Below are positions 658-18,970 of a DNA stretch of 53,823 nucleotides, piece after piece. The DNA is from an uncultured Roseiflexus sp. Lineage in GTDB: Bacteria > Chloroflexota > Chloroflexia > Chloroflexales > Roseiflexaceae. How positions within the stretch are numbered: the stretch's first letter is position 1; the number at the start of each line of letters is the position of its first letter. The notes under the pieces were generated by a model. The model did no database searches. It saw only the letters and a list, made by a program, of their open reading frames with translations, and was not told the DNA's origin. Location: NCBI GenBank assembly GCA_937935075.1, contig CALGYB010000115.1, positions 1-53,823 of the forward strand, in the 5' to 3' direction. Made by a program: the position numbers and the translations under genes.

Positions 658-1174
658 AGGCGGTGCGTGCGGGCGCGACGCCTGCGTTCCCAGGCGGTGC
701 GCCGGAGACGAGCAGCGGATACGATGAATGCATCCAGCGGCGAAAGTCGTCGGCGAACCCATGTTTGCGCGGGTTCAGGCGGATGTAGAGCATCGTGTTG
801 CGAAATTGCCCTCTGTCGGTCACGATGACGCGCCCAAAAGGATGCTGGAAGAGGCTTCCGACACGACCATATGCCTTGTTAATCGATTTGGCGCATGCGT
901 TGAGCAAATGGGCAAACCGGAGTGATGGCGTTGACCTCGTTTTATCGTGGGAAGCCGCCCGTGCATCGATTTCTTTTTGGGATTTGGTCTTAATGAGGAG
1001 GTGAAAATGGTTCTTCAACAGGCAATATGCGTATGTATAGGCCATTTGAGGAATATATTTCTCGTACAATGTCAGGAAGTAATCGTAGTTACGTTCCTCG
1101 ATGAAGATATTTGTTTTATTCGTCCCACGGGTATACATGTGGTACACGGTAGAATAGGAGAGAATAAACGTCAC
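656..1174 (-). CDS. RAYT-type (REP-associated tyrosine) transposase, C-terminus probably altered
   Basis: The protein of about 172 aa has the Y1/TnpA_REP layout: YHMYTRGTNKTNIF near the start, an HUH motif in LLKNHFHLLIKT, and a YIRLNP helix that in RAYTs holds the catalytic Tyr. RAYTs are single-strand transposases associated with REP hairpins. The GTG start at 1174 overlaps the TGA of the upstream regulator (GTGA), suggesting translational coupling; an ATG at 1138 is the alternative. The stop lies in the last bases of the IS5 remnant, and the final residues (GNAGVAPARTA) read through a REP-like sequence, so the native C-terminus was probably replaced by insertions. It may be inactive. Confidence 0.8.
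   Translation of the reverse strand: MTFILSYSTVYHMYTRGTNKTNIFIEERNYDYFLTLYEKYIPQMAYTYAYCLLKNHFHLLIKTKSQKEIDARAASHDKTRSTPSLRFAHLLNACAKSINKAYGRVGSLFQHPFGRVIVTDRGQFRNTMLYIRLNPRKHGFADDFRRWMHSSYPLLVSGAPPGNAGVAPARTA
660..700. repeat. REP-like sequence at RAYT 3' end
   Basis: Read on the minus strand this encodes GNAGVAPARTA. A related sequence in the nuoM-nuoL gap (9085-9117) encodes GSAGILPARTN in another frame. The shared core is a short imperfect palindrome of the form GCAGGCrnnnnGCCyGC. Lying next to a RAYT gene, it is a plausible REP substrate. Confidence 0.45.
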
Positions 1175-3105
1175 CTCTCGACCGCCACCCGATTCGCCGC
1201 CTCTTCCATCAACGCCAGCTGGCGCGCCACTTCTTCCACGGCGATCCGCTGCTTGCGGTACAGGTCGGACTCGCTCATCGCCAGGCGCTCGGCAGTCTCG
1301 CGGATGCGTCGCCCCTGCAGGAAACGCATCTCCAGGATATTGTAGAGCAGCCACTCCTGCGCCGACGGGTCGAGTTGCGCGTCAGGGCGCAGGTTCTCGA
1401 TTGCCTGGCGCAGCACCGCCTGCAACGCGCGCGTCGGGCTGCCACCCTGCTCCTCCAGCACCCGCCGCACCGTCCGCAACCCCAGGAGCGGACTTTCCGA
1501 CAGTTTCGGTCCTCCCCAGTAGTGCGCCAGCGCTTCTTTGACCAGTTGTGGGAACTCGGGTAACGACGCAACATCCGATTCGAGCGTCTGCAGTGATGCC
1601 GGCGTCGCCTGCTCAAGTTGCGTGCTCAAATGCTGAAGCGATTGCATATCCGGTCCCAACCCGCGCAACGTGTCGAACAGCCGCTGCTGCATCTGAACTG
1701 TCTCGAGCGCCAGTTCCATTCGGTGCGCCAGCGCTCCGATGAGTCGTCGCGCATCAGCGTTCAGCGCATCGTGCGGATAGACGACCCCCAGGCACCCAAG
1801 CAACGCCCCGTCAGGAGCGCGGAGCGGCAGCAGCCAGAACCCTTCGACGCGCAGGAACGCCTCGGCTGGCGGCGTGTCGCCTGCCGGTCGCGGCGGTAAT
1901 TGCGACAACCGCCCCATCAGATCGATCAATGGATGCTCATTCACAAAACGCCGCACCGCCTGGCGCGATCCGACCAGCGTTTTGACGGTGTAACCGCCAG
2001 CATCGTCTGGCGCGGCGACAAACCCGGTCTCTGATCGCAGCGCCCCGCACACGACGACAAGCGTGTTCTCCAGCAGGCTGCGCAGGTCGGCCTGGGTGAA
2101 GGTGTTACGCGGCAGGGCGCGCAGGTAATCGATCTCAGCGTGATCCTGCGCATACACCAGCGCGTCGAGGTACGGTTTCAGGCGGTTGACAAACAGCGGC
2201 ATGATCACGGTCATAATCACCACGCCTGCGGTCAGCAACGCCTGCTCCGGCAACCCGAACCAGCGCGCCAGCACCGGCGTTGCGCGCAGGAAGAGCGCGA
2301 TGCTGATGCCAACGAAGGGACCGTACAGCACCCAGCGGATGAAGTCCTGCTTGATCAGGCGGTCGGGCAGCGGCAGACCCTGGAATGCAATGCTGTAGAC
2401 CATCACAGTTGTCATCAGCATGACCGCGATATTGCCAACGGCCACCAGAAACAGAACCAGCGCAAATGGAACAAAATACTCCGGTCCTGGAATACTGAGG
2501 AACGGGTAGACGGCAATCGCCGGACCGACGAACGTCAGGCTCAGGTAAGTCATCCGCCGGCGCAGGGTCGGCGTCAGCGCCGCCTGGCGCACCGCCAGCG
2601 AGGCGGACAGCCCGATGAGACAGGCCAGCACGAAGTAGACGGTAAACAGCCAGAAGAGCGGACCGGCGTTGAACTGCGCGACCGGTTGGGTCTGTACACC
2701 ATTGTGCACGATCAGGTCGGTGCCCCACGCCAGCGCCAGAAATGCGGCGCTGAGCGCATATGCCCCAGGAACACTCCAGCGCCGCCGCAGTTGGTTTTGC
2801 CCGGTGAGGTCGAGCAACGCATCTGCCAGGTGAATATACCCGGCCGGTACGCTAACGATGCCGAGCCACTGCGCGCGCAGCAGAAATTGCAGCGTCTCCT
2901 CACGTTGCGCCTGCTGAGTCAGCACATCGCCGCCAAACACGACCACGATACCGCCGAGCAACACCGCCAGCGCGCGCGCGATGGGGGTGTAGCGATTTTG
3001 CAGAACCAGGTAGACCAGGAGCGAGAATGAAACGATCAGAACAGCCGATGCCAGGAGATCGTTGATGGCAAGCAGCAGATTCGTCAGGAATGGCAGGTCC
3101 GTCAT
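1171..3105 (-). CDS. Membrane GAF-domain regulator with C-terminal HTH-like region
   Basis: In this 644-aa protein, residues 1 to about 320 form roughly ten hydrophobic segments, a sensor-type membrane region. Residues about 340-480 resemble a GAF domain (LLENTLVVVCGALRSETGF... to ...GVVYPHDALNADARRL). The C-terminus (about 560-640) has a helix-turn-helix look, with LQGRRIRETAERLAMSES followed by SDLYRKQ, like sigma region 4 or simple activators. No kinase H-box or ATP-binding motif was seen, so it is more likely a one-component membrane sensor than a histidine kinase. No strong ribosome site precedes the ATG. Its stop overlaps the RAYT start. Ligand and targets are unknown. Confidence 0.6.
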   Translation of the reverse strand: MTDLPFLTNLLLAINDLLASAVLIVSFSLLVYLVLQNRYTPIARALAVLLGGIVVVFGGDVLTQQAQREETLQFLLRAQWLGIVSVPAGYIHLADALLDLTGQNQLRRRWSVPGAYALSAAFLALAWGTDLIVHNGVQTQPVAQFNAGPLFWLFTVYFVLACLIGLSASLAVRQAALTPTLRRRMTYLSLTFVGPAIAVYPFLSIPGPEYFVPFALVLFLVAVGNIAVMLMTTVMVYSIAFQGLPLPDRLIKQDFIRWVLYGPFVGISIALFLRATPVLARWFGLPEQALLTAGVVIMTVIMPLFVNRLKPYLDALVYAQDHAEIDYLRALPRNTFTQADLRSLLENTLVVVCGALRSETGFVAAPDDAGGYTVKTLVGSRQAVRRFVNEHPLIDLMGRLSQLPPRPAGDTPPAEAFLRVEGFWLLPLRAPDGALLGCLGVVYPHDALNADARRLIGALAHRMELALETVQMQQRLFDTLRGLGPDMQSLQHLSTQLEQATPASLQTLESDVASLPEFPQLVKEALAHYWGGPKLSESPLLGLRTVRRVLEEQGGSPTRALQAVLRQAIENLRPDAQLDPSAQEWLLYNILEMRFLQGRRIRETAERLAMSESDLYRKQRIAVEEVARQLALMEEAANRVAVER

Positions 3106-3463: not shown

Positions 3464-4018
3464 CTACTCCCCTAACTTACGCATCTCCTCATCGATGCGC
3501 AGACCTTCGATCTGCCCTGCGGCAGGAGGAGCAGTAAGATTGTATGAAGTGATCTGGCGTTGCAGATTCGTGAGCATCTCGCGGTACTCGGCGCGTAAAC
3601 GCGAGCGAAGAGCGGAGGGGAGGCGCGACCAGCGGCGATTGGCGTCGTGAAGCCATGCAGAAATGCGTGCGCGCTCGGCGTCAATATCGCGGCGCGCTTC
3701 GATCCAGAGCGGCGCGAAACCGGCATTCTTCAGCAAGCGGAATCCGGCGCGCATATCTTCGGGGGTAAGCGCATCATCATCGTAGCAGAGCGGCCTGCCG
3801 GCGCCGGAAAGATTGTCGAATGCGCCGTCTGCGCGCGCCTGCTCGATCAGACGATCTACCAGCGTCTCGAAATCGTTCTGGGGCGCGCCGCGCTGCATCT
3901 GATCGATGGCGCGCGCCTGTTCGACCAGGCGCTCAAACAGCGTTCCGCCGGGTGTGTGGCTCGCCGCTTCACGAGGTTGGAGAGAGGAACCGGAATCTTC
4001 TGACAGTTGATTGTTCAT
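3464..4018 (-). CDS. DUF1992 (DnaJC28-like) domain protein
   Basis: In this 184-aa protein, residues about 48-125 match the DUF1992/DnaJ-homologue-subfamily-C-28 conserved domain: LVDRLIEQARADGAFDNL, then GAGRPL, then FRLLKNAGFAPLWIEARRDI. A helical tail follows. There is no J domain; bacterial members commonly lack it and their function is unknown. It lies 19 bp after nuoN on the same strand and may be carried on the complex I transcript. No clear Shine-Dalgarno was seen before the ATG. Confidence 0.85.
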   Translation of the reverse strand: MNNQLSEDSGSSLQPREAASHTPGGTLFERLVEQARAIDQMQRGAPQNDFETLVDRLIEQARADGAFDNLSGAGRPLCYDDDALTPEDMRAGFRLLKNAGFAPLWIEARRDIDAERARISAWLHDANRRWSRLPSALRSRLRAEYREMLTNLQRQITSYNLTAPPAAGQIEGLRIDEEMRKLGE

Positions 4019-4037: not shown

Positions 4038-5660
4038 CTACCGCGCCGCGACGCTTGCGGCGCTGCTGAGCGTTCCCCAGATCAGATTAGGCAGTAAACC
4101 GAGCAATACCACCAGCACGGTCGAAACAATGATTGCCGCGTTGGCGACCGGCGGCGTCCTGAACGGCGTAGTTTCGGGCGCCGGCAGAATCCACATTGCC
4201 TTGAGGAACCGCAGATAGTAGTACAGACTGACGACCGTCATAATGACAGCGATAGTCACCAGCGGCACAGCGCCCGCCTGATAGCCGGCCATGAAAACAA
4301 AGAACTTTGCCCAGAACCCGGCAAGCGGCGGAATGCCTGCCAGTGAGAGGATGAGGACCGTCATCATCAGCGTCAGCGGCATGTTGCGTCGCCACAATCC
4401 CTGCATCGCACTCAGATCGTCGCTGCCCAGCGCATTGGTCAGCACCGCCAGCACGCCGAAGCTGCCCAGGTTCGTGAGCGAGTAGACGATCAGGTAGTAG
4501 ATCAGGGCAGCCGTGCCAAAGGTGCGGTCCACAGGCGACGTTGATGACCAGAGCAGCACAGCCAGCAGCAAAAACCCGGCGTGCCCGATCGACGAGTACG
4601 CCAGCAGGCGGCGCGCATTCGTCTGCGGCAGCGCCGCCAGGTTCCCGACAATCACGGTCACCAGCGCCAGAATCGCCAGGATGCTGCTCCAACCGTTGAA
4701 CTCTTCCAGGCGCGGCGCGCCAACCGCTCCCGGGAACGCCGTCGTTAGCAACCGGTAGAGGAGCAGGAAACCGGCTGCCTTCGACGCCGTCGAGAGGAAG
4801 GCGGTCACCGGCGGCGGCGCGCCCTGATAGACATCCGGCGCCCAGGTATGGAATGGCACGACCGAAATCTTGTACCCCAGACCGGCAATGATGAAGAGCA
4901 TACCGAGGATCAGCAGCGGGCTGCTGGCGGCATCGCCAGTTGCAAAGCGCCCGACCTCCGCAAAGAGCGTGGCGACGATTGGCGTACCGCCCGCTTTCTG
5001 GTTCTCACTGGCGACAAATCCATAGACCAGGCTGATGCCGTAGAGCAAGATTGCCGATGACAGCGACCCGAACAGGAAATATTTCAGCCCGGCTTCTGGT
5101 GAACGTTCGCTCTCGCGGAAGTACCCGGCGAGCACGTAGAGCGAAATCGACGACAACTCGAGCGCCAGGTACGCCAGAATGAATTCCGTCGCCGCCGCCA
5201 TGATCGACATCCCCAGCGCCGAGAAGATCAGCAGCGAATAGAATTCACCGGGGTTGGCGGTCAACCGATACCCCATCGCCAGCAGAGTCGTCAGGAACGC
5301 AGCGCCGATAAAGGTCAGGCGCGCCACCATCGTGAATTCATCGGTTGCAAACGCACCCAGGATCGGCGACCCGCCCGGTCCACCCGCCTGCAAATTGCGT
5401 CCCAGCGTCAACAGCACATCCAGCGGCCCGCCAGTTGGGTCGGGCACGGTAAAGAGAAAGCGGCTCTGCACCAGCCCAACAATAAAGACCAGCCCCAGTC
5501 CAGTGGCAGTCAGTTGACCGGCTTCTCTGGCACGTTCGAATTGCGCCTGCGGTCCGCGTCCCCAGCGTGTCAGCACATCGGAGCCGAGCACCAGCAACCC
5601 CAGGAGCAGAAGCATCAACTCCGGCAGAATGCGTGGAATATCGGTGATTTGGAACGACAT
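4038..5660 (-). CDS. nuoN: NADH-quinone oxidoreductase subunit N
   Basis: This antiporter-like membrane subunit of complex I (about 540 aa) has roughly 14 hydrophobic segments. It carries the family signatures [20 protein letters not shown] (with the loop HTWAPD) and [13 protein letters not shown]. The ATG at 5660 ([18 protein letters not shown]) is chosen because it begins at the first conserved segment; an upstream in-frame extension lies in repeat DNA. It is the last nuo gene and is separated from the second nuoM by a 147-bp gap holding two copies of a GC-rich hairpin. Confidence 0.93.
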
Positions 5661-5807
5661 ATGATCTTCGCCTTCCCACCTGCAACGATCAACCCTGCAC
5701 CCTGTCAGGCGAGCCGGGGAGGGCACGGCAGCGCCGCGCCCCTACCTTCCCTATGCACCGCGCGCCGTCCGTGCGGGCGCGGCAGCGCCGCGCCCCTACC
5801 TCAACCG
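5661..5807. repeat. Two GC-rich hairpin repeats inside nuo operon
   Basis: Two direct copies (about 5722-5748 and 5778-5804) of GGCrCGGCAGCGCCGCGCCC followed by CTACCT. Each can fold through GGGCGCGGC/GCCGCGCCC (9-bp stem on the transcript strand). They may tune mRNA stability or attenuate nuoN; that role is inference. Confidence 0.6.
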
Positions 5808-7325
5808 TCACCGCATCCCCAGCGTTCCGGCGCGCGCCAGCGCCTCAGCGATCGGCTGCATGCTGGCTTCGATCGGCTCGGTCAGGTACGCCGGGTAGAG
5901 ACCGCTGACGATCAGCACAACCACCAGAATAATACCGGCAGCGTACTCCTGCACCGTCAGCTTGGGCAGATGGCGGAACTCGGGATTTTTGATTTCGCCG
6001 AAGAACACCCGGTACACCGCGATCAGGATGTAGCCCGCCGTGATCGGGATCGAAATGCCCGCCAGCACTGCGATGAGCGGGAAACGTTGCCACATGCCCA
6101 TGAAAATGTTGAACTCCGCCCAGAACCCTGCCAGCCCCGGCATACCCATCGACGACAAGCCGGCGATGATAAAGACAATCGCCGCAAACGGCATCACCGT
6201 GAACAGGCCCCCAAGCTCAGGAAACTGCCGAGTATGCGTCCGGTCGTACACCATCCGCCCGACAACCGCAAAGAAGAGCGCCGTCATCACGCCGTGTGCG
6301 AACATCTGAAGCACCGCGCCGGTCATGCCGATCGTGTTCGCCGCCGCCAGACCCATGAGAGTCAATCCCATGTGGCTGACCGACGAATACCCGATCATGA
6401 ACTTGAAGTCGCGTTGCGTCATAGCGATGCTGGCGCCGTACACCGCGTTGATCAACGTGGCGATGGCAATCGGCAGCAGCCAGTAATTAGCGCCTTCGGG
6501 AAAAATCCACATCGCCACGCGCAGGCAACCATACGCCCCCAGTTTCATCAGCACGCCCGCGTGCAGCATCGACACCGCAGTCGGCGCAGCGACGTGACCG
6601 GTCGGCGACCAGGTGTGGAACGGGAACATGCCCGCCAGTACCGCAAACCCCAGGAAGAGCGGCACGAAGAAGACGATCTGCACATCACGCGAGAACAGCG
6701 CCGATTGCGCCAGCAGGCGCATATCGAAGGTGCGCAGCGTGCCGCTGAAATACACAGCGACCATGCCCAGAATGATGAATGCCGATCCGCCCATCAGGTA
6801 GAGCGTCAGTTTCATCGCGCCGTACTCTTTGCGCGTGCTCCCCCAGATGCCGATCAGCAGGTACATCGGCAACACTGCCAGTTCATAGAAAATAAAGAGC
6901 AGGAAGAGGTCGAGCGACACGAAGACGCCGTACACCCCCGCCGCCAGCAACAGCAGCAATGCCCAGTACTCGCGGGTCCGATCCTCAATGTTCCAGCTGA
7001 TCAGCGCGCCGGTGAAAATGACCAGGCCGTTGAGCAGCAGCATCGGCAGGCTGATGCCATCGACGCCAAGGATGTAGTTGATGCCGAGTTCCGGCAACCA
7101 GGGAATTTCTTCGAGAAACTGAAACGTCTCCGGGCTGCGGTAGTCATACGCCAGATACACCAGCAGCGTCAACACCAGCGAAATGAACGAGAAGATCGCG
7201 CCAACCATCCGGATTTCCTGCTTCTGCTCCGGTTTCAGCAGCGCAATAATGAATGTCGGTATCGCCAGGCTGAGCCATATCAGACTGAGCCACGGCACAT
7301 TTGCCGGCAGATCGATCAGGTTCAT
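5808..7325 (-). CDS. nuoM: NADH-quinone oxidoreductase subunit M (second copy)
   Basis: This 505-aa NuoM-type proton-pumping subunit begins MNLIDLPANVPWLSL and has the conserved blocks LGVDGISLPMLLLNGL, FPFHTWSPTGHVAAPTAVSM, GYSSVSHMGLTLMGLA and GLSSMGMPGLAGFWAEFNIF. The length is typical for NuoM. It starts 8 bp after another full nuoM gene (7334-9034). Since both copies look intact, it is predicted to be the extra pump module of a complex with two NuoM subunits rather than a decayed duplicate. Confidence 0.92.
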   Translation of the reverse strand: MNLIDLPANVPWLSLIWLSLAIPTFIIALLKPEQKQEIRMVGAIFSFISLVLTLLVYLAYDYRSPETFQFLEEIPWLPELGINYILGVDGISLPMLLLNGLVIFTGALISWNIEDRTREYWALLLLLAAGVYGVFVSLDLFLLFIFYELAVLPMYLLIGIWGSTRKEYGAMKLTLYLMGGSAFIILGMVAVYFSGTLRTFDMRLLAQSALFSRDVQIVFFVPLFLGFAVLAGMFPFHTWSPTGHVAAPTAVSMLHAGVLMKLGAYGCLRVAMWIFPEGANYWLLPIAIATLINAVYGASIAMTQRDFKFMIGYSSVSHMGLTLMGLAAANTIGMTGAVLQMFAHGVMTALFFAVVGRMVYDRTHTRQFPELGGLFTVMPFAAIVFIIAGLSSMGMPGLAGFWAEFNIFMGMWQRFPLIAVLAGISIPITAGYILIAVYRVFFGEIKNPEFRHLPKLTVQEYAAGIILVVVLIVSGLYPAYLTEPIEASMQPIAEALARAGTLGMR

Positions 7326-7333
7326 AGAACGAC

Positions 7334-9034
7334 TTATGCTCCTCCCGCCACCCGGATGAACACTTCCACCAGCGCGGTCGCCGTCCGGTTCGACAGGTCC
7401 ATAATCGGCGCGGGATACACTCCCAGGATCAGGAGCGCAATCAGCAGCGGCGCAACCGCCAGAAACTCACGTCCGGCGAGGCGCATGTCGGGCATCGCGC
7501 TGCGCTCGTTGGCTTTACCGTGGAAGATCTGCCCATACATCCGCAGCAACGCCAGCGCCGTCACCACCAGCCCAATTGTCGCCAGCAGCGCGAAGAGCGG
7601 CAGCGACGCCCACACACCGCGGAAGATGAAGAATTCGCCGACGAACCCGGCAAGCCCAGGCAACCCCAGATTGCCGAAGGTCGCCACGCCCATCGCCCCG
7701 GCAAAAACCGGCATAGTCGTGCGCAACCCGGCGAGCGATCCCATTTCATCGGAACCGGTGCGCTCGGCAAGCATACCCGCCATCAGGAAGAGCGCACCGG
7801 TCGAAAGACCATGCGCCACCATCTGGAACAGTGCACCGTTGATCGCTGTTGCGCGGGTGGCGGCATCCGCTGCGCCAACGGTCGCTGCGGCAGCAATCGC
7901 CAGCCCGACGTACCCCATGTGATTGACCGAGGTATAGGCGATCAGGCGCTTGAGGTCGCCGCCGACCTGACCGAGCGCGCCAAAGGCGCCCGCCACCACG
8001 CCGATCAGCGCCAGCGCGCCAATCGCCGGACCAAAATACTGCGCTGCATCGGGAACAAATGGCAACAGCAGGCGCAGCATCCCATAGGCGCCCATCTTCG
8101 ACATCACGGCTGCCAGCAGAATAGACGCCGCCGGCGGCGCTTCGCTATAGGCATCGGGCAGCCAGGTATGGAAGGGCCAGATGCCGAGTTTGATTGCGAA
8201 CGCGACAAAGATCGCCCAGAACGCGATTGATGTGTAGAGCAGCGGGTAGCGCCCAAGCACAGCGGCAATCCCCAGTTGCTCGACATAGTTGAAGATGATC
8301 TCACCCAATGTCAGGTTCACCGGATCGAGCGCCGCGCGTTCGACGGTCAGCCCCTGACCCAGACGCGCCAGCGTGATCAGATCGAATGTCGGGATGCCGG
8401 CCGCAGCCGTGGCGACGTAGAAGAACTGGAAGAGCAGCAGCATGCCGATTGACCCGGCCATGGTATAGACGAAGAACTTGAGCGCGGCATTACGGCGGCG
8501 TTGCTCCGGGTCGGCGGCGTCAGCATGGCGGCGTCCCCATCCCTGAATGAGGAAATACGCCGGCACCAGGCTGAATTCCCAGAAGATGAAGAAGAAAAAG
8601 AAATTGAGCGCCAGGAAGTACCCCAGCATCGCCGCTTCCAGCAGGAACATGAGCGCGATGTACAGCTTCACGCGCTCAGTGATGCCGAACGATGCCAGCA
8701 TCGCCACCGGCGCCATCACCGCCGTCAGAATGACCAGCGGCATACTGATGCCGTCCACACCAACGAAATAATCGACCCGGATCGCCTGCACCCACGGAAT
8801 CTTCTCGACAAACTGCACCACCCCCTGACCGTCGGCGGTCGCATTCGGGTTGAACCCGACCCAGACAATGATCGCCAGCGCCAGGGGAATGGTCGACCAC
8901 GCAGTGGCGCCAATCTTGACCGTCCGGTCATCAAGTCGCAGCGCGCCTGCCAGCCCTGCCAGCGCCAGCCCGACCAGCGGCGACAGGATGAGCAGCGTGA
9001 GCCAGGGTGTCGATGCGTATGCCAGGTAGGTCAT
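7334..9034 (-). CDS. nuoM: NADH-quinone oxidoreductase subunit M (first copy)
   Basis: A 566-aa NuoM-type subunit with blocks VDYFVGVDGISMPLVILTAV, IWPFHTWLPDAYSEAPPAAS, YTSVNHMGYVGLAIA and GNLGLPGLAGFVGEFFIF. It is about 60 residues longer than the second copy, partly from an extended loop near residues 150-230 (GRRHADAADPEQRRRNAAL, then VERAALDPVNLTLGE). The ATG at 9034 begins with a clear membrane segment. The 318-bp gap upstream toward nuoL is full of repeats, but gene order and strand support one operon. Confidence 0.92.
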   Translation of the reverse strand: MTYLAYASTPWLTLLILSPLVGLALAGLAGALRLDDRTVKIGATAWSTIPLALAIIVWVGFNPNATADGQGVVQFVEKIPWVQAIRVDYFVGVDGISMPLVILTAVMAPVAMLASFGITERVKLYIALMFLLEAAMLGYFLALNFFFFFIFWEFSLVPAYFLIQGWGRRHADAADPEQRRRNAALKFFVYTMAGSIGMLLLFQFFYVATAAAGIPTFDLITLARLGQGLTVERAALDPVNLTLGEIIFNYVEQLGIAAVLGRYPLLYTSIAFWAIFVAFAIKLGIWPFHTWLPDAYSEAPPAASILLAAVMSKMGAYGMLRLLLPFVPDAAQYFGPAIGALALIGVVAGAFGALGQVGGDLKRLIAYTSVNHMGYVGLAIAAAATVGAADAATRATAINGALFQMVAHGLSTGALFLMAGMLAERTGSDEMGSLAGLRTTMPVFAGAMGVATFGNLGLPGLAGFVGEFFIFRGVWASLPLFALLATIGLVVTALALLRMYGQIFHGKANERSAMPDMRLAGREFLAVAPLLIALLILGVYPAPIMDLSNRTATALVEVFIRVAGGA

Positions 9035-9352
9035 AAGTTCACCACGGGTGATTCTTCTGCGCGTAACCGCTTATGCTTTTCCCGGAAGCGCAGGCATCCT
9101 GCCTGCCCGCACGAACGATTCTCTTGGGTCGGCGGGACGCCATGCACCGGCGCCTGTCACAACCATTCCGCCGCCGATTTTTTATTTCGGGGGCAACCCC
9201 CGACCCCCCTGTAGTCGCCCGGTATCGCCCGATCCAGCCGCGCAGGCGGGCTTTGCAACCGGAACCCGCGGCTTCTTCAGTTGCCGGGCAGGCAGGGTTT
9301 GGCAGGTTCTCTGCGCCTCTGTGCCTTTGTGAATCTTCCCCGCATTCCACGC
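9035..9352. repeat. Repeat-filled gap between nuoL and nuoM
   Basis: It contains a REP-like block (9085-9117), an inverted GGGGGCAACCCCCGACCCCC tract (about 9190-9210), and at 9308-9333 a copy of a dispersed motif reading, on the minus strand, ACAAAGGCACAGAGGCGCAG. Related motifs are at 18350-18365 and 52315-52338. An open frame across it on the minus strand has no recognisable protein features and is read as repeat. Confidence 0.6.
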
Positions 9353-11533
9353 TCAACGCACCAGGTACAGGTACAGGACGCCGAGCACCACTGCCCCCGC
9401 GAACGCCAGCGCCACATAATCCTGCACCTTGCCGGTTGACGTGCGACGGGTGCGATCACCGGCGACCTGCGTACCGGTCGCCATCAGATCGGCGCCATCG
9501 TTCAACAGCGCATCGTCCACGATAAAATTGACCTGCCCCAGAAACCGGGTCAAGCGCCCCGTTTCAACCACCACCCGGTCGATCACCTGCTCGTCGAGCC
9601 AGGTCCAGACACGTGCCAGCACCGCAGCGGCGACGCCAACCGTCGCAGCATACAGTTCATCGAAGTAGAACTTGCGGTTGAGCACCGTGAAGACGCCGGG
9701 CATCATGCGCTCGAGCGGATCGGCTTCCTCGGCGGATGACGCGAAGGCATTGCGGTACACCAGCCATCCCAGCAGAATGCCGCCAATCGCAATGGCGCCG
9801 GAAATCCCCATGACCAGCAGGTTCAGTTTTCCGGCTTCCTGCCCGAAGAAATCCGCCAGATGGTGGAAACCGTCGAACGGCAGGTTGACGACGCCGGCAA
9901 ACACCGCGAACAGCGCCAGTATTACCAGCGGCGTCGTCATCGTCCAGGGGCTTTCGTGCGGGTCGTGCGCCTCGTAGTGATGGTCATCGTGCGACACGAA
10001 GGCATACGGCTGCTGTCGCGGATGATGCCCGCGGAACGAGCCGAAGAACACCACCATAATCTGGCGCGTCATATAAAACGCCGTCAGCAGCGACGCCAGA
10101 CTCAGCACCACCCACACGAGCGTGTTGGCGCGGAACGCATCCGCCAGGATCTCGTCCTTGCTCCAGAAGCCGGCGAAGCCGGGGAACCCGGCGAGCGCCA
10201 GGAAACCCGCCATGTACGCCAGAAACGTCACCGGCATAAAGCGGCGCAACCCGCCCATGTTACGAATGTCCTGAGCGGTATTCGAGTCATGCCCGACCGT
10301 CGCCTCCATGCCGTGGATGACCGAGCCGGAGCCGAGGAACAGCAGCGCCTTGAAGAAGGCGTGAGTGAGCAGATGGAACATCGCCGCCACCCACCCGCCA
10401 ATGCCGAGCGCCGCAACCATGAATCCCAGTTGCGAAAGGGTCGAATACGCTAGAATGCGCTTGATATCGAACTGCCCGACGGCGATCAGCGCGGCGAAGA
10501 GCGCCGTAAACGCGCCAATTGTCGCCACCACCGGCAGGGCATCACTGACCTGGAAGATCGGGAAGGTGCGCGCCGTCAGGAATACCCCCGCCGACACCAT
10601 GGTGGCGGCGTGGATGAGCGCGGAAACCGGCGTCGGACCTTCCATCGCGTCGGGGAGCCAGACGTGAAGCGGAAACTGCGCCGATTTGCCGATCGTGCCG
10701 CTGAAGATCAGCAGCGCAATACCGGTAGCGGCGCTGATCCCGATGCCGGTCGTCGTCGTCGCCAGGCGCTCGAGCAGTTCGGGATTGAACACCTGCCCCG
10801 GTCCTGCGCCGAGTTCAAGGGTTCCGGCTTCGGTCCATAGCCATGCCAGACCGATCATGAAGAGCACATCGCCGATGCGGGTGGTAATGAACGCCTTGAT
10901 TGCCGCCTGACGCGGAGTGATCTGATTCGGGTCGGCATAGTTCTTATCGTACCAGAAGCCAATCAACAGGTACGAGCAGAGACCCATAATCTCCCACGCC
11001 ATGAAGAACAGGAGCAGGTTGCTCGCCATCACCATCGCCAGCATCGCGGCGGTGAAGAGCGAAATGAACGAGAAGAAACGCGCCTGACGCGGGTCGTGCG
11101 CCATGTAACCGACCGAAAACAGGTGAATGCAGGTGGCGGTGACTGTCACCATCATCAGCATCGCCGCCACCGCCGGGTCGATGATATACCCCATCGTAAA
11201 GGGAACATCACCACCAGCCGGCGCCCAGCGGATTGTGCGGACGATATTCGGATCGCGCCACTCGAACCCATGCCCGGCGCCTTTTTCGGCGGCGGGTTCA
11301 GCGGCGTGCGACTCTTCCGCGTGCGCAGCAACCGTGCCGTCCATTGCAATCTTCACGCCGCCGGCGACTTCGACGGCTGTACCGACGGCGATGATCGTGG
11401 CGCCGACCATCAACAGCGTCGCCAGCCAGGCGCTCGCGTTCTTGTTGCGCTGAATTGGCGTCAGCGTAATGACTGCAAACCCGATCAACGGCAGCAGCGG
11501 GATCAGCCAGGCATTTTCGAGAAACCATCCCAT
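9353..11533 (-). CDS. nuoL: NADH-quinone oxidoreductase subunit L
   Basis: The distal pump subunit of complex I, about 726 aa from the ATG at 11533 (MGWFLENAWLIPLLPLIGF; AAGG about 8 bases upstream). Signatures are HLFSVGYMAHDPRQARFF, QFPLHVWLPDAMEGPTPVSA, AATMVSAGVFL, YSTLSQLGFMVAALG and FKALLFLGSGSVIHGM. It is longer than the roughly 610 residues usual for NuoL. There is a long hydrophilic loop after the second segment (about residues 60-105). The C-terminal lateral helix region also carries roughly 20-25 extra residues between VIDRVV and TGKVQDY (about residues 665-690). The latter feature is expected in complexes with an added NuoM. Confidence 0.93.
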   Translation of the reverse strand: MGWFLENAWLIPLLPLIGFAVITLTPIQRNKNASAWLATLLMVGATIIAVGTAVEVAGGVKIAMDGTVAAHAEESHAAEPAAEKGAGHGFEWRDPNIVRTIRWAPAGGDVPFTMGYIIDPAVAAMLMMVTVTATCIHLFSVGYMAHDPRQARFFSFISLFTAAMLAMVMASNLLLFFMAWEIMGLCSYLLIGFWYDKNYADPNQITPRQAAIKAFITTRIGDVLFMIGLAWLWTEAGTLELGAGPGQVFNPELLERLATTTTGIGISAATGIALLIFSGTIGKSAQFPLHVWLPDAMEGPTPVSALIHAATMVSAGVFLTARTFPIFQVSDALPVVATIGAFTALFAALIAVGQFDIKRILAYSTLSQLGFMVAALGIGGWVAAMFHLLTHAFFKALLFLGSGSVIHGMEATVGHDSNTAQDIRNMGGLRRFMPVTFLAYMAGFLALAGFPGFAGFWSKDEILADAFRANTLVWVVLSLASLLTAFYMTRQIMVVFFGSFRGHHPRQQPYAFVSHDDHHYEAHDPHESPWTMTTPLVILALFAVFAGVVNLPFDGFHHLADFFGQEAGKLNLLVMGISGAIAIGGILLGWLVYRNAFASSAEEADPLERMMPGVFTVLNRKFYFDELYAATVGVAAAVLARVWTWLDEQVIDRVVVETGRLTRFLGQVNFIVDDALLNDGADLMATGTQVAGDRTRRTSTGKVQDYVALAFAGAVVLGVLYLYLVR

Positions 11534-11630: not shown

Positions 11631-11957
11631 TCAGCCGCGCAAACTATCGACCTCATCGGCGTTGACCGTCTGACGTGCGCGGTAGATCGCAATGATCATC
11701 GCCAGACCGATCGCGGCTTCTGCCGCTGCCACAGTAATAATGAACAGCGCGAACGTCTGCCCGGCGACAACGTTTGGCTCCAGGTAGCGCCAGAACGCCA
11801 CCAGATTGATATTGACGGCGTTGAGCATCAACTCGATGCCAAGCAGAATGCCGACGGTATTGCGCCGCGAGAGGGCGCCGAACAACCCAACGCAGAACAG
11901 CGCGCCAGCCAGGGTGAGCACCCACGGAAGCGGAACAGCCTCGGTCATTGACGGCAT
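11631..11957 (-). CDS. nuoK: NADH-quinone oxidoreductase subunit K
   Basis: A 108-aa protein with three membrane segments and the NuoK/MrpC signature [20 protein letters not shown], including the conserved membrane Glu residues in GIELM and [14 protein letters not shown] precedes the ATG at 11957 by about five bases; ATG at 11948 is the alternative. It forms the proton path between NuoJ and NuoN. Confidence 0.94.
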
Positions 11958-12012: not shown

Positions 12013-12654
12013 TCATGACTCGCCGCCGGTCGCCTCCGACGCCTGGATGGCAGTTGCTGCCGGTTCGGGGAGCGGCGCCGGTTGCCGTTGTTGCCGGCGC
12101 AGGCGCACCTGTTCCGCCAGGGTCAGCACCCGGCGGCGGCGTTCGCGCTCCTCGAAAGCGATGACAATTGCGCCGATCATGGCGACCAGCAGCAGGATCG
12201 CCGCCACTTCGAACGGCAGAAGATACTCGCGCATGAATGCCGTACCGATCTGCTGGGCGCCGGAGATGGCCGGCGATTGTCCTGCCGGCGGCGGCGGCAG
12301 CTGCCAGGCGTAGGTCATGACCGTCGGCACAATCAGGAGACCGAACAGCGCCGCCGGCACGATCAACGCAATCCACCAGCGCGGCGTCAGTTGACGGTTC
12401 TGACTACCTTCCAGATCGCGTGTCAGCATAATGGCGAACAGGATCAGGATCGACACTGCGCCGACGTAGATCAGCACCTGCGCAACGCCGAGAAACTCCG
12501 CCTCCATCAACAGATAGAGCGCGCCGACGCCGAAGAACGACGAGATCAGCCAGAGCGCGGCATGCACGATATTCTTGACCGTGACGGTCATGATCGCAGA
12601 TGCCAGGATAAATGCGGCAAAGACCACGAACAGAATAGTGATCAACGTATTCAT
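12013..12654 (-). CDS. nuoJ: NADH-quinone oxidoreductase subunit J
   Basis: About 213 aa with five hydrophobic segments. It has NuoJ hallmarks: NIVHAALWLISSFFGVGALY, then YLLMEAEFLGVAQVLIYVGA and SILILFAIMLT. A charged C-terminal tail (EERERRRR to about the end) extends past the last segment. An upstream TTG is in frame, but the ATG at 12654 fits the family start better. 36 bp separate it from nuoH. Confidence 0.93.
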   Translation of the reverse strand: MNTLITILFVVFAAFILASAIMTVTVKNIVHAALWLISSFFGVGALYLLMEAEFLGVAQVLIYVGAVSILILFAIMLTRDLEGSQNRQLTPRWWIALIVPAALFGLLIVPTVMTYAWQLPPPPAGQSPAISGAQQIGTAFMREYLLPFEVAAILLLVAMIGAIVIAFEERERRRRVLTLAEQVRLRRQQRQPAPLPEPAATAIQASEATGGES

Positions 12655-12690
12655 AAGGCGCGCCAATACGATAAATAATGCGCTTGCATC

Positions 12691-14052
12691 TCAGGAAGCG
12701 ACGACCAATTCTTCCTCGATCCATTCTTCCTGCGTCGGGCGCTGATTGATCGAGAGAATCCAGTAGGCGGCGGCGATATTGATAATCGCCGTCACCAGAA
12801 TGGCGATCAATTGGCGCTGCCAGGGCGCAAACCCATCCAGGCTCAACAACCCGCCCCACTGTGCGCTCGTCCACTGCGTCAGCCCGACCATCAGCGATGC
12901 GGACACAATATTGACCAAAGCCAGCGGCAGCAACAGTTTCCAGGCAAAATCCATCAACTGATCGACGCGCAGCCGTGGAAACGCGCCGCGCAGCCAGATC
13001 ATCACAAAGAACAGAACCCAGATTTTGGCAAGCAGGTAGAATGCCGACAGCGCCGCCGCGACATGCACCCACGGACCGCCCATATTCGCCAGCGCCGCGA
13101 CTCCTGGTCCCTGCCATCCGCCGAGGAACGCGGTGGCAGCAAGCGCCGACAACGCAAAGTTGAGGATGTACTGCGCGATATAGAACGTCGCAAACTTCAT
13201 GCCGCTGTATTCGGTCATGTAGCCCGCAACAATCTCCGAGTCCGCCTCGGGTATGTCGAACGGGGTGCGCTCACCTTCAGCAAGCGCCGCAATGAAAAAG
13301 ACGATAAAGCCAAGCAATCCCACCGGCGTAAACACCCACCACCCCAGACCAAGGTCGAGCGCCTGCACCGGTTCACCCGGCGAGCCAGGGAACGACGTCA
13401 CCGTGGTGTACAGCGACGGCGAGCATCCTGCCGCATCGCCGCAGAGAATGGTTGCGCCCATGAGCGGCACGCCCGCCTGCATGTAGGGCAACTCCAGCAA
13501 CGACATGCCGCCGGCCAGAATGACGACCGTGAGCAGGGCTGTGACCGCCGGGATTTCGTAGGAGACCAGTTGCGCCACTGCGCGCATCGCACCGAGGAGC
13601 GCGAATTTGTTATTCGATCCCCAACCCGCCATCATCAATCCGACGCCCGACACGGCTGACACGGCGACGATGTAGAGCAGTGCGACATTCAGATCGATCG
13701 GCTCCCAGCCGCGCCCCCACGGAATGACGGCAAGCATCATCGCCACCGGCGCGAGCGAGACGATTGGCGCCAGCAAGTGCACCCATTGATCGGCGCTGCG
13801 TGGAACGATGTCTTCCTTGGTAAACATCTTGACCGCATCAGCGATCGGTTGGAGCAAACCAGCCGGTCCCACCCGATTTGGACCGAGGCGGTCCTGCATG
13901 CGCGCAACCACACGTCGTTCCGCCCACACCATCATAATGAAGTTTCCGACGGCATAGAACAGCACAATGGTGGTCACCAGCAGATAGGCGATCAGAACGA
14001 TCACCCAGTCCGGGAGGGCGCCGCCAATCCATGATCGCAGGATGTCGGTCAT
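12691..14052 (-). CDS. nuoH: NADH-quinone oxidoreductase subunit H
   Basis: This 453-aa quinone-site membrane subunit has conserved loops WAERRVVARMQDRLGPNRVG, QPIADAVKMFTKED and EGERTPFDIPEADSEIVAGY followed by TEYSGMKF. It is longer than the usual 320-350 residues, because of an inserted segment around residues 200-235 with two cysteines (ILCGDAAGCSPS) and a C-terminal extension of about 40 residues. AGGTGAG sits 7 bases before the ATG. The insertion lies before the segment that carries the quinone loop and looks like a periplasmic loop. Confidence 0.94.
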   Translation of the reverse strand: MTDILRSWIGGALPDWVIVLIAYLLVTTIVLFYAVGNFIMMVWAERRVVARMQDRLGPNRVGPAGLLQPIADAVKMFTKEDIVPRSADQWVHLLAPIVSLAPVAMMLAVIPWGRGWEPIDLNVALLYIVAVSAVSGVGLMMAGWGSNNKFALLGAMRAVAQLVSYEIPAVTALLTVVILAGGMSLLELPYMQAGVPLMGATILCGDAAGCSPSLYTTVTSFPGSPGEPVQALDLGLGWWVFTPVGLLGFIVFFIAALAEGERTPFDIPEADSEIVAGYMTEYSGMKFATFYIAQYILNFALSALAATAFLGGWQGPGVAALANMGGPWVHVAAALSAFYLLAKIWVLFFVMIWLRGAFPRLRVDQLMDFAWKLLLPLALVNIVSASLMVGLTQWTSAQWGGLLSLDGFAPWQRQLIAILVTAIINIAAAYWILSINQRPTQEEWIEEELVVAS

Positions 14053-14066: not shown

Positions 14067-15221
14067 TTATTCTTCGCTTCCGTCATTTTGGGCAGCGGCT
14101 TTTTTCGCAGCATTCGCGGCGCGAATCGCCGCCAGGCGCGCGGCTTTGTCGGTCGGCGCGTCCCCCGTCGTCGGCGCAGGGGCTTCCGCTGCGGGTGGCG
14201 CGGAGGCGGCATCGGCGCCCTCAGCAGATTTCTTTGCCGCATTTGCGGCGCGAATCGCCGCCAGGCGCGCGGCTTTGTCGGTCGGCGCGCCCCCGGTCGG
14301 CGCAGGGGCTTCGGTAGCGCCTTCGTCTGTCTTTTTCGCCGCATTCGCGGCGCGGATCGCCGCCAGGCGCGCGGCTTTGTCGGCAGGCGTGCTCTCGCTT
14401 ACAGGTTCAGCCGATGCTTCGGCAGCCGTCTTTTCAGCAGCCCGGGCACGTGCAGCCGCCAGGCGCGCGGCTTTGTCGGCGGGTGCAGCATCAGGAGTTG
14501 CAGAAGCAGGGGCAGGCGCCTGCGCAGCAGCGGACTCGGCGCGTTTCGCCCTGATCTTCTCGACCATCTGCGGCGCAACGCCGATCAGGTCAGGACGGCG
14601 CTTCATGTTGCCCTGCAACTTCTTCATTGCGCTGTCCTTCACCTCCGCCCAGAACGACGGCGCGATCTTCTCGTAGTAGGAGATCGGGCGGTTCAACGCT
14701 TCCTTGTTAATCGTCAACCCGCCGTGCACATCGGTCGAATACTCGAACTCGTGATCCATTTTAATCGCGTCGAACGGGCAGACTTCCGCACACAGACCGC
14801 AACTCATGCAGGCGTCGTACTCGATCAGAAACTCAGCGACTGCCGGAACCGGCTTGCCGGTAGACGGATCGCGGGCCTGCGTCATATGGATGACCTGTGG
14901 CGGGCAGATACGCTGGCACTGGAAACACGAGGTGCACAATTCGTGCCCGGTCTCATCATCGTAGAGAAGGATCGGGAAATTGCGGAACGCCTCGGGCAGT
15001 TTCAGGCGTTCTTCCGGATACTGAACGGTAAACACGCCCGTCTGCTGACTTGGTTTTTCCAGTTTGCGCGTCAGCGCATCGCGAAAATGGCGAAAGACGA
15101 CATCGAGGCCCGTCAGCAACCCCTGACCGGCGCGCAGTCTGGGGCGGCTGCGGTCAATAACATAGACCCCGCCTCGCGTCGTTTGGACTTCGGTTGGTTC
15201 AGTCTGTATTTCAGTCGTCAT
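14067..15221 (-). CDS. nuoI: NADH-quinone oxidoreductase subunit I with repeat tail
   Basis: Residues 1 to about 190 form the NuoI ferredoxin-like subunit with both [4Fe-4S] motifs intact (CTSCFQCQRICP and CMSCGLCAEVCP). These pass electrons toward cluster N2 in NuoB. The following ~190 residues are an Ala/Lys/Arg-rich tail built from four repeats of about 18 conserved residues (consensus ADKAARLAAIRAANAAKK) separated by Pro/Ala/Glu linkers. Usual NuoI length is about 160-200 aa; this is about 384. The ATG at 15221 has AAGGTG 8 bases upstream. The tail is predicted to be helical, basic and cytoplasmic. Confidence 0.92.
   Translation of the reverse strand: MTTEIQTEPTEVQTTRGGVYVIDRSRPRLRAGQGLLTGLDVVFRHFRDALTRKLEKPSQQTGVFTVQYPEERLKLPEAFRNFPILLYDDETGHELCTSCFQCQRICPPQVIHMTQARDPSTGKPVPAVAEFLIEYDACMSCGLCAEVCPFDAIKMDHEFEYSTDVHGGLTINKEALNRPISYYEKIAPSFWAEVKDSAMKKLQGNMKRRPDLIGVAPQMVEKIRAKRAESAAAQAPAPASATPDAAPADKAARLAAARARAAEKTAAEASAEPVSESTPADKAARLAAIRAANAAKKTDEGATEAPAPTGGAPTDKAARLAAIRAANAAKKSAEGADAASAPPAAEAPAPTTGDAPTDKAARLAAIRAANAAKKAAAQNDGSEE
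14090..14490 (-). repeat. Four in-frame tandem repeats in nuoI tail
   Basis: Near-identical DNA segments of about 60 bp at 14098-14162, 14231-14291, 14333-14393 and 14427-14487 encode the DKAARLAAIRAANAAKK units. The last three protein units are almost identical and the first is more diverged (ARLAAARARAAEK), suggesting stepwise duplication toward the C-terminus. Confidence 0.85.
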
Positions 15222-15774
15222 CAAGGCTGCACCTTTACTCTGCATTCAATCATGCGCTCGAAAGGTCGCATTTTGCACATACGTGGTGCATCTCGATCGA
15301 TTCTTGTGCTTATCCATGAGGATTGTTTTCTATTATCCCAGATTGAGTTTCAAATCTAAGAGGAAGATCAACCGGGTATGAGACAATCTCGTGATTGATG
15401 TTGGCTTCGACAGGCTCAGCCAACGCCAACCGCTTCACAGGTGCAAGCGTGTTTGTCCGGGTTTAGACCGATCTTCCTAATAGATTATCGTACTTATAGA
15501 GCGAACAACCAGATGTTGCACACTACTTGCCCATGGTGACCATCTTGCGGCGGAGGTTGGCTTCGACAGGCTCAGCCAACGTCCGCTGCTCCACGTCCTT
15601 GAGCGTCCAGGTTTGGGTGATCGCTCTCGTAGGGCAAAGACGGTGTAATGGACTGTTTCCACAATACGACATGCTTACCTTCGACCTTCGCACAGTCAAC
15701 CCTCACTCTGCCACCTGAGCGCCAGTCACGTTGCCGATGGGAACATGGCCGACGACATTCAACCGCACAACACG
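15222..15774. other. 553-bp gene-free gap in the nuo operon (nuoD to nuoI)
   Basis: No gene is supported. The gap holds a TTCGACAGGCTCAGC hairpin with stem GTTGGCT/AGCCAAC (about 15402-15426), a full family-1 hairpin element (15498-15627), and an AT-rich stretch near 15300-15360. This is the only large break in an otherwise compact operon and could contain a processing site or a secondary promoter. Confidence 0.6.
15498..15627 (+). mobile_element. Hairpin MITE-like element, family 1, copy 2
   Basis: It aligns with 3296-3426: left end AGAGCGAACAACC, central TTGGCT-TCGACAGGCTC-AGCCAA hairpin, the segment TCCACGTCCTTGAGCGTCCA, and right end GGTGATCGCTCT. It is 130 bp long with no coding capacity. 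Confidence 0.7.
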
Positions 15775-16899
15775 TTAACGATCCACCTCACCCATCACGA
15801 TATCGATGCTCCCAAGGATAACCACCACATCGGCGACCTTATGGCCCCGACACATATCGCCGAGCGGCGTCAGGTTGATGAACGACGGAGCGCGCACCTT
15901 GTAGCGATATGGTCGCTCGCTGCCATCGCTCACCAGGTAGAAGCCCAGCTCCCCTTTCGGCGACTCGATGCGCGCATACGCATCACCCGGCGGCGGGCGC
16001 AGCGCCTTCTGCTTGCCGATGTTCGCCATCGACGGATTGATATGCCCGCCAGTCGTATCAGGCAGGCGCTCGATCACCTGCTGCAGAATCCGATAACTCT
16101 GCCGCATCTCCTCGATACGGATCAGGAAGCGGTCATACACATCCCCCACCGACCCGATTGGAATATCAAAGTCGAGTTCGTCGTACACGCTGTACGGTTC
16201 AGCCCGGCGCACATCATACGGAATGCCCGACGCGCGCAGCACCGGACCGGTGACGCTATACGAGACGGCGACTTCTTTCGGCAGAATGCCGACATTCACG
16301 GTGCGCGACAACAAGATCTCATTTTCTTTCAACAAACGCTCGAACTCATCGAAGAACGCCGGCAACCCCTGCATCAACTCCTTGAGTTGCGGAATGAATT
16401 CGGGCGGGAGGTCGCGCCACACGCCGCCGAAGCGGAAATAGTTGCACATCATCCGGGCGCCGCTCGCCATCTCGAACAGATCGAGGATCTTCTCCCGCTC
16501 CCGCATGCCGAACATCAGCGGCGTCTGCCAGGCGCCCATATCGTTGAGCAAGAAGCCCACTGCCGAGGCATGGTTCAGAATACGGGTCAGTTCGACCATC
16601 AGCACCCGAATGTACTCAGCGCGCTGCGGCACACTGATGCCGGCCAATTTCTCGACCGCCAGCGCCAGCGCGTGGTTGTTCGCCATCGAATTGAAATAAT
16701 CGAGACGGTCGGTGTACGGCATCGACTGAATGTAGGTCGAAACCTCCGCCAGTTGCTCGTGATTGCGGTGCAGATAGCCGAAGACCGGCTTCAGATCGAT
16801 GATCGTCTCACCATCGACGGTGACGATCATGCGAAAGACGCCGTGGGTTGACGGATGTTGCGGACCGATATTGATCTGGAGTTCCTGCGTTTGAAGCAT
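15775..16899 (-). CDS. nuoD: NADH-quinone oxidoreductase subunit D
   Basis: A 374-aa, 49-kDa-type subunit that lines the quinone-reduction site with NuoB. Conserved blocks are [54 protein letters not shown] and [16 protein letters not shown]. It is not fused to NuoC. The start is 8 bp after the nuoC stop. Confidence 0.95.
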
Positions 16900-16907: not shown

Positions 16908-17477
16908 TCACTCTTCACTATCGCCAAAATACTTATCACCCTGTTTGGGAAAATCTTTCCGCATCGGCCACCCCTCGAACTCATCCCACATATAAATGCG
17001 GGTCAGATTCGGATGACCGGGGAAGACCACGCCGAACAGGTCAAACGCCTCGCGCTCCTGAAGGTTTGCTCCGGGCCACTCATTGGTAAGCGATGGCACG
17101 ACTGGCTGATCGCGCGGTACACGGGTTTTGACCACCAGTTCGGGACCGCCGTCGAGATGATAGAAATGGTAGACGATCTCGATCACACCATCAGCAAGGT
17201 AATCGACCGCAGTGATATTCGAGAGCAACTCATAGCCAAGGACGTCGCGCACGTAGCGCGCCACGTCGGGAAGGCGCTCAGGATACACCACGGCATCGTC
17301 GGTCGCCAGCAGATCGACCGGCGCGTGCTCCCCTCGCTTATGGCGCGCCGCTTTACCATCGCCAGCCGATGCTTCGCTCCCATTGCTCGTCTGCGTGCGG
17401 GGGCGTGTCGGCATCAGGGCGCCGGGCAGATCGTGAGCCAATCGCTCTTTGAGTTCAGCGCTGCTGATCTTTGGCAT
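16908..17477 (-). CDS. nuoC: NADH-quinone oxidoreductase subunit C
   Basis: About 189 aa, the 30-kDa-type peripheral-arm subunit. The C-terminal half has the family signature [27 protein letters not shown] and [13 protein letters not shown]. The N-terminal 60 residues include a low-complexity Gly/Ser/Lys stretch not typical of the core domain. The ATG at 17477 is preceded by GAGGTGG and lies inside the end of nuoB (23-bp overlap), implying coupled translation. Confidence 0.94.
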
Positions 17478-18261
17478 GGTCCACCTCAACAGCAGGGCGT
17501 TTCAGGTCATTATGCGCAATCTCCGGTGCAACGCCTTTCGCCTTCTGGGGCGATTCCAGTTCGACGGTTTCGTCCATGATCGGGAAATGGCGCACCAGTT
17601 CAGGATGTTCGATCAGCCCCGAGCGCATCTCTCCATGGGTTGGCGACGTATACGGACTAATGAGCGGCAACCCGCCGACCGGATCGACCAGTTTGCCATC
17701 GATCTCCAGCCCATGCTTCCCGAAGGTCGGCACCGGATATTCCTTCGCTTCACGTTTCCCATACCAGCGCACCCGGTTCAGGCGTTGCGCATCGATCTGC
17801 TTCTGCAACGTCATCAAGGCGTGGAGCAAGGCTTCGGGGCGCGGCGGGCAACCCGGAATATAGACATCAACCGGGATCAGGAGATCGATCCCGCGCAACA
17901 CATTGTACCCATCGCGGAACGGCCCGCCAGAGGTGGCGCAGGCGCCCATCGAAATAACATAGCGTGGTTCGGGCATCTGATTGTAGAGGCGCACCACCTG
18001 CGGCGCCATTTTCTTCGTCACCGTCCCCGCGACGATCATCAGGTCCGCCTGGCGCGGCGATGCGCGAAACATCTCGGCGCCGAAGCGCGCCAGGTCGAAG
18101 CGCGCCAGACCGGTTGCCATCATCTCGATGGCACAGCACGCAAGGCCAAACGACAGGGGCCAGACTGACGAACGCCGCCCCCAGTTATAAAATCGCTGCA
18201 TGGTCGTCAAAAAGACGCCCTGCTTTTCCGCTTCGAGCTGGATATCACGATCATCAGACAT
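17455..18261 (-). CDS. nuoB: NADH-quinone oxidoreductase subunit B
   Basis: This 268-aa subunit holds terminal cluster N2. It has the adjacent-cysteine motif [10 protein letters not shown] plus MGACATSGG and [15 protein letters not shown], giving all four ligands. It is longer than typical NuoB (about 160-220) through a C-terminal extension from about residue 175 ([20 protein letters not shown] onward), as in some other Chloroflexi and Deinococcus-type proteins (from memory). GAGGGAG precedes the ATG. The upstream gap to nuoA is a 7-bp tandem repeat. Confidence 0.95.
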
Positions 18262-18393: not shown

Positions 18394-18750
18394 CTACACC
18401 CACTCGAGTGCGCCCTTCTTCCATTCGTACACCAGACCGCCAACCAGGATAACCAAAAAGACCGCCATGGCAATCAGCGCAAACAGCCCAAGCTGCCCAT
18501 ATGCGACGGCCCAGGGATAAAGGAAGACCACCTCGATATCGAAAATCACAAACGCCAGTGCGTACAGATAATACTGAATCTTGAACTGCACCCGAATATC
18601 GCCAATCGCTTCCAGACCGCACTCATACGTGTCGAGCTTGATCGGCGTGGGGCGTTTGGGACCAAGGAAATACGCGGCCACCAGCGGGACGAGCGGGAAG
18701 ATGACCGCACCGATAAAAAACACGCCAATAAACGCATAGTTCGCCAACAT
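18394..18750 (-). CDS. nuoA: NADH-quinone oxidoreductase subunit A
   Basis: 118 aa, three membrane segments, with the NuoA signature [20 protein letters not shown] and [20 protein letters not shown]. It is the first gene of the operon; AAGGAG lies about ten bases before the ATG. Confidence 0.95.
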
Positions 18751-18802
18751 CGGACTGCGCTCCTTGCGGGGACTATCTCTCTCAGGCGCAATGACATTGC
18801 TG

Positions 18803-18832
18803 AGTATATCACAACCCTTCGTGAAATCGCAA
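18803..18832 (-). promoter_or_regulatory. Predicted promoter of the nuo operon
   Basis: On the minus strand: TTGCGA (18827-18832), an 18-base spacer, and TATACT (18803-18808) preceded by TGA, an extended -10. It lies about 53 bp upstream of the nuoA ATG in the most AT-rich part of this gap. Confidence 0.6.
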
Positions 18833-18970
18833 ACAAACTGGTAAAAAGATTACAACCAGGGGTTACAGATGAGGCGATGAAGAGCGCAGGCGGTGCGACG
18901 GGCAGGGGATGGTCCGTATCTCCCCGCCTTTGGGCCGTTGTGTGAGGCTGCACATCCTGAAGCGACGCCG

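Follow-up and report, generated by a model that had tools for sequence, protein, structure and literature searches.

A two-NuoM complex I operon of Roseiflexus in which the added NuoM lacks the lysine of transmembrane helix 7

An operon for a complex I with two NuoM subunits was analyzed in the window, that is, the whole 53,823-nucleotide stretch of DNA (contig CALGYB010000115.1, here C115) from the 4.85-Mb genome of an uncultured Roseiflexus sp. By gene order and by an insertion in the lateral helix (HL) of NuoL, the cluster is assigned to the described 2M type of complex I. The NuoM encoded next to NuoN (Mb; 5808-7325, minus strand) belongs to a clade without the lysine of transmembrane helix 7 (TM7), and has Leu230 at the position of E. 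coli K234. The 2M complex is probably an enzyme without an NADH module and with a four-unit arm, in which Mb would be a coupling unit without a Glu-Lys switch of its own. We also suggest, tentatively and with slightly less than even confidence, that the fourth unit of this large 2M group does not copy the canonical pump but comes from an old NuoM subfamily able to work without the supposedly indispensable TM7 Lys; this subfamily would also supply the sole NuoM of some natural three-unit complexes.

The genes on the minus strand were found in the order nuoA-B-C-D-I-H-J-K-L-M-M-N, and none of nuoE, nuoF and nuoG was found in the nuo cluster of the window. The NuoM adjoining NuoL was named Ma (7334-9034, minus strand), and that adjoining NuoN was named Mb. 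Both open reading frames (ORFs) were uninterrupted and scored well above the cut-off (263.8) of NCBIfam TIGR01972 NDH_I_M, with 454.8 bits for Ma and 464.9 bits for Mb. Gene order, unbroken frames and family scores thus bear out a first-pass annotation of this DNA, which had read an L-M-M-N arrangement with two intact nuoM genes. The nearest named records were Roseiflexus metagenome-assembled genomes (MAGs), and Mb was 93-95% identical to its counterparts in Roseiflexus sp. SKYG45, SKYB12 and 629F.7. The 2M operons of relatives that were recovered whole had the same gene set, with nuoEFG missing. The operon type of Chloroflexota, in which nuoM and nuoN flank the additional nuoM and EFG is absent, was present in the window and in relatives including Chloroflexus islandicus (L094). 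A second, canonical complex I set was found in the same genome, with C185 carrying L-M-N and C54 carrying A, B, C, D and E, and the relatives sampled for canonical operons also carried them.

The HL of the NuoL encoded at 9353-11533 (minus strand) was measured from FYFDELY to TGKVQDY. It comprises 78 residues (622-699, with the inserted block at about 665-690), compared with 54 in the canonical NuoL of the same genome and 53-54 in canonical relatives. In a MAFFT alignment that included E. coli, the HL had 77-78 residues in all 21 NuoLs of L-M-M-N operons from the window and its relatives, while in 16 NuoLs of one-NuoM operons it had 49 in E. coli and 53-54 in the other 15. A single 26-column gap separated the long from the short forms, so the net insertion expected from the first-pass annotation was present. 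Direct counting gave 44 residues from VIDRVV to TGKVQDY in the window NuoL and 18 at the matching place in the canonical NuoL on C185. The annotation had given about 47 residues, against about 24-28 for canonical NuoL; the extra length stands with a corrected figure, but the canonical length assumed was too long, and the insertion had therefore been underestimated, not overestimated.

The insert appears to be a 26-residue duplication that has decayed in the window, a reading that the relatives support and for which the window by itself is weak evidence. Long-HL homologues show a plain tandem repeat of 26 residues (for example L223 and L192, p about 0.002); in L223, FDKWAVDGIVNAAGYVTLATSYISVG is followed by FDTYVVDGLVNTAGYIVRGFSWTFKK. 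An offset of 26 gave the top mean self-score among offsets 14 to 39, in the 2M and the one-NuoM long-HL sets alike. The self-repeat of the window HL gave p = 0.028 at offset 26 and p = 0.45 once all offsets were allowed, which is not significant. The description of the block as a rough duplicate in the first-pass annotation was fair in that the repeat is plain in the homologues, but over all offsets it did not reach significance in the window.

HL length was also compared with the number of nuoM genes. Among two-NuoM operons, 83 of 86 NuoLs had an HL of 77-82 residues, and the remaining three were interrupted or truncated ORFs (L098 among them). In one-NuoM operons (n = 68) the HL had 49-54 residues in 46 and 78-83 in 22, a proportion that is no natural frequency because the NuoL used as sampling query was a 2M NuoL. 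The long-HL one-NuoM forms were scattered across the NuoL tree, and in G074 and G103, which are single-contig genomes, a long HL occurred with one NuoM gene found genome-wide. Such complexes perhaps contain two copies of one NuoM, or an unlinked partner. As judged from these sequences, 2M requires a long HL, whereas a long HL alone does not establish 2M. HL length was rejected as proof of 2M, since these 22 of 68 NuoLs were also long, and it is unsafe as a marker. The long-HL one-nuoM operons were L192, L200-L206, L222, L223, L225, L226, L230, L236 and L239, together with L248, L250, L253, L256 and L261-L263.

In canonical NuoM, the TM7 Lys pairs with the Glu of TM5 (the Glu-Lys pair). The TM7 of Mb (FFVPLFLGFAVLAGMFPFHTW) contains no Lys or Arg. 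Leu230 was invariant in 16 aligned Mb sequences, and in the AlphaFold model of Mb (predicted local distance difference test score, pLDDT, 87.8) helix 213-230 ends at Leu230, at the TM7 break; on these three grounds a misalignment of TM7 was rejected. The modelled fold is that of a whole NuoM (Z 51.8 and 1.8 Å over 486 residues aligned with the mycobacterial NuoM chain 8e9g_M). Mb keeps E148 (TM5), K261 (TM8), H318, H344 and E404 (TM12), and the equivalents of E. coli E144, K173, K265, H322, H348 and E407 are all present. Every charged residue tested is kept in NuoL, in Ma (equivalents of E144, K234, K265, H322, H348 and E407) and in NuoN (4038-5726, minus strand; equivalents of E133, K217, K247 and K395). 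The key-residue check suggested in the first-pass annotation found a complete set in NuoN, Ma and NuoL; in Mb, the replacement of the TM7 Lys by Leu is the kind of loss that the annotation itself had named as counting against it. Retention of the key residues in all four units, which is a proposed property of 2M complexes and not known to be a defining one, does not hold here, given Leu230 of Mb. In E. coli, mutations at the TM7 Lys lead to loss of function (PMC3046159), and the purified K232Q enzyme of P. denitrificans was unable to catalyse NADH:quinone reduction (PMC9802314).

The residue at this position was Lys in 151 and Leu or Ile in 109 of all the NuoMs collected, with no other residue. 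All Ma, NuoN, NuoL and canonical NuoM sequences checked had the TM7 Lys, and in the Chloroflexales relatives Leu was found in every intact Mb with the sole exception of L056. Bacterial and archaeal genomes scanned with an Mb alignment yielded L-Ma-Mb-N operons also from Verrucomicrobia and Acidobacteria (Granulicella); in all of these the residue was Lys for Ma and Leu for Mb, and the HL had 77-79 residues. The Mb-specific DNA pattern of the scan, W[SA]PTGHVA, adjoins TM7 and might bias the sampling, so NuoL was used as the query for a second sampling of loci from Chloroflexota, Acidobacteriota, Desulfobacterota and Planctomycetota. Among these loci and the relatives of the window, the two-NuoM operons with both TM7 helices readable comprised 27 with Lys then Leu and one with Lys in both (L056). 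The one-NuoM operons of the same set had Lys in 42, Leu in three and Ile in one. The outcome through NuoL was the same, and an artefact of the Mb pattern was rejected.

The exceptional L056 (G016 contig C347) consists of an Mb-type N-terminal half and a canonical NuoM C-terminal half, with a canonical NuoN after it. It follows a 2M NuoL and Ma, and its MAG comprises 3840 contigs, with a contamination of 8%. This chimera is probably, although not provenly, a misassembly. Apart from it, the Mb Leu is invariant in the 2M operon sequences compared from Chloroflexota, Verrucomicrobiota and Acidobacteriota.

The two NuoMs belong to different lineages. All Leu/Ile sequences (52 of 52 tips) fell into a single clade of the NuoM tree, which had a support of 0.999 even after TM7 was cut from the alignment, and the Ma sequences formed a separate clade (51 tips, support 0.996). 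Ma and Mb of the window were 36% identical to each other, and 39% (Ma) and 36% (Mb) identical to the canonical paralogue. The separate clades and the 36% identity rule out a recent duplication of nuoM within the operon, and indicate that the 2M operon joins two old NuoM lineages; as judged from the tree, both clades are older than the phyla. In NuoL and Ma/Mb trees of the sequences collected here, the window grouped with the 2M operons of Chloroflexus, Oscillochloris, Herpetosiphon, Verrucomicrobia and Acidobacteria. Mb-type NuoM was also found as the only NuoM, with an HL of 52-54 residues and Leu or Ile in TM7, in L138 (Desulfobacterales), L148 and L149 (Phycisphaerales), L154 (Myxococcales), L209, L252 and L264. 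A Lys-less NuoM is therefore kept in natural three-unit operons, which presumably encode working enzymes. In L138 the TM5 Glu was also replaced, by Asp.

The founding description of 2M complex I is reportedly that of Chadwick et al. (2018, ISME J 12:2668). The first-pass annotation had named these authors and called the cluster a 2M-type complex I; the attribution was right, and gene order and HL insertion confirm the class. The 2M complex I has been reported for Chloroflexus, Anaerolinea and Nitrospira. As described in papers that cite the founding work (PMC8004040, PMC7117926, PMC6606698, PMC9040806), the features shared with the window are nuoL-M-M-N, the HL insertion of about 26 residues and, in part of them, the absence of the NADH module. 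Operons of the same type have been described for Chloroflexus aggregans (PMC8004040), with an extra nuoM between nuoM and nuoN of a 12-gene nuo cluster as in the window, and for Anaerolinea (PMC7117926). No structural difference from the window was noted in these descriptions, to which the present data add the NuoN-side NuoM without TM7 Lys. No mention of this missing Lys was found in the literature searched, which did not cover the founding paper; no priority is claimed, and Chadwick et al. may already report the loss.

Canonical complex I, encoded on C54/C185 of this genome, has homologous L, M, N and peripheral subunits, but only one NuoM, with the TM7 Lys, and an HL of 54 residues. The one-NuoM Mb-type complexes share with the window a NuoM of the Mb clade with Leu/Ile in TM7, but lack the second NuoM and the long HL. 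Complex_I_3 of Candidatus Manganitrophaceae has a 26-residue HL insertion like the window, but two MrpD-like subunits in place of NuoL; in the same family, the insertion is also found in two other complex I types (PMC9040806).

A membrane arm of four antiporter-like subunits strapped by a longer HL is well supported by the genes, from which we infer its assembly. The subunits would lie in the order N-Mb-Ma-L, as in the operon, and the HL, longer by one 26-residue unit, could strap all four, the unit corresponding to a helix of about 39 Å at 1.5 Å per residue. This is roughly the width of one subunit. Work on P. denitrificans has given the HL a structural role only. N, Ma and L would each retain a charged switch. 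Mb, with Leu for the TM7 Lys, would be unable to make the Glu-Lys pair by which canonical units are gated. Since it keeps the rest of the path, we favour a relay or follower, electrostatically driven by its neighbours, and any proton transfer in it would run from the TM8 Lys to the TM12 Glu with no switch of its own. The stoichiometry would then be four to five ions for every two electrons. As the TM7 Lys is essential in one-NuoM enzymes and lost in Mb, an extra pumped proton is not to be assumed, and a fifth pumped proton is not supported. The added pump and higher ion/electron ratio proposed in the first-pass annotation are unsupported as stated, for Mb is without the TM7 Lys in every relative with an intact gene.

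Several points weigh against this relay model. We know of no structure of a 2M complex, and the subunit positions come from gene order only. The AlphaFold model of NuoL alone, a monomer, was good except in the distal HL, and gave no confident shape for the insert (residues 669-711, pLDDT below 50). The whole enzyme of P. denitrificans stops without the Lys charge, so a follower would have to differ in some other way. Mb and its other charged residues are deeply conserved, which speaks for a proton-related role and not for an inert spacer.

If Mb were instead a full fourth pump, with the five ions per two electrons that have been proposed for 2M complexes, then water, His255 on TM8 or residues of neighbouring subunits would have to replace the TM7 Lys. 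The other charged residues of Mb are all conserved, and a TM8 His was gained by 71 of the 109 Mb sequences and by no Lys-type NuoM; TM8 of MrpA likewise has His plus Lys (PMC7419157). The use of the Mb type as sole NuoM in L138, L148, L149 and L154 also suggests that a Lys-less unit is compatible with turnover. However, the TM8 His was missing from 38 of 109 Mb sequences, no conserved titratable residue was gained in TM7 and none above 85% elsewhere in the membrane core, and the canonical enzyme without the Lys charge loses catalysis (PMC9802314). We consider such a pump rather unlikely.

It is improbable that Mb is a structural spacer or remnant in a complex that pumps as a three-unit enzyme. 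The loss of the switch Lys would fit a spacer, as would the loss of conserved acids near TM7b (E. coli D246 to T, E250 to A), but the near-invariance across phyla of the TM5 Glu, TM8 Lys, two His and TM12 Glu is unexpected for one, and sole-NuoM operons use the Mb type. Alternatively, Ma and Mb might be exchangeable, giving two kinds of three-unit complex from one operon, with another cause for the long HL. The different lineages of Ma and Mb are compatible with this, and so are the many operons with a long HL and a single NuoM, including those of single-contig genomes with one NuoM gene found. Since all 83 intact 2M NuoLs have the long HL and the Ma and Mb genes are kept together across three phyla, we regard this alternative as very improbable.

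The electron donor of the 2M complex is probably other than NADH through a dedicated NuoEFG. The nuoI product (14067-15245) ends in a tail in which DKAARLAAIRAANAA occurs as three exact copies and one degenerate copy, set in Pro/Ala-rich linkers. The other Chloroflexales 2M operons read had NuoI tails with similar repeats in variable copy number, whereas the canonical NuoI of relatives had no such tail, with 57 residues after the last Cys motif. No occurrence of the repeat elsewhere in this genome reached a significant score. A resemblance to the tail repeats of E. coli RsxC was unconvincing, since 14 of 300 shuffled tails matched the score. The tail is possibly a docking site for the electron donor. 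In Verrucomicrobial 2M operons, NuoI was extended at its C-terminus by a further Fe-S domain resembling PF04060 FeS (L131:67-1227, 25.9 bits; L126:104-1450, 22.5 bits, just under the cut-off of 23), which hints at a different electron input. For related 2M complexes, reverse transport to ferredoxin has been discussed (PMC6606698, PMC12342949).

The remaining genes of the cluster, like nuoI on the minus strand, are nuoK (11631-11957), nuoJ (12013-12666), nuoH (12691-14052), nuoD (15775-16899), nuoC (16908-17489), nuoB (17455-18261) and nuoA (18394-18750, with a putative start Met; ORF 18397-18849). Downstream of nuoN lie a DnaJ-C28-like gene (3464-4018) and, beyond it, a gene at 1171-3105 (minus strand), whose product has an N-terminal seven-transmembrane sensor region of histidine-kinase type (PF16927).

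It is debated how complex I links quinone chemistry with pumping at a distance, and current models centre on the Glu-Lys pair of each antiporter unit. A fixed natural loss of the Lys across a whole NuoM clade, in the added unit and in the sole NuoM, makes these models testable by comparison, and gene count alone is an unsafe basis for assigning five protons per two electrons to 2M complexes. If the Lys-less subfamily does work as suggested, the natural one-NuoM Mb-type complexes would offer tests, already at hand, of the Glu-Lys switch model.

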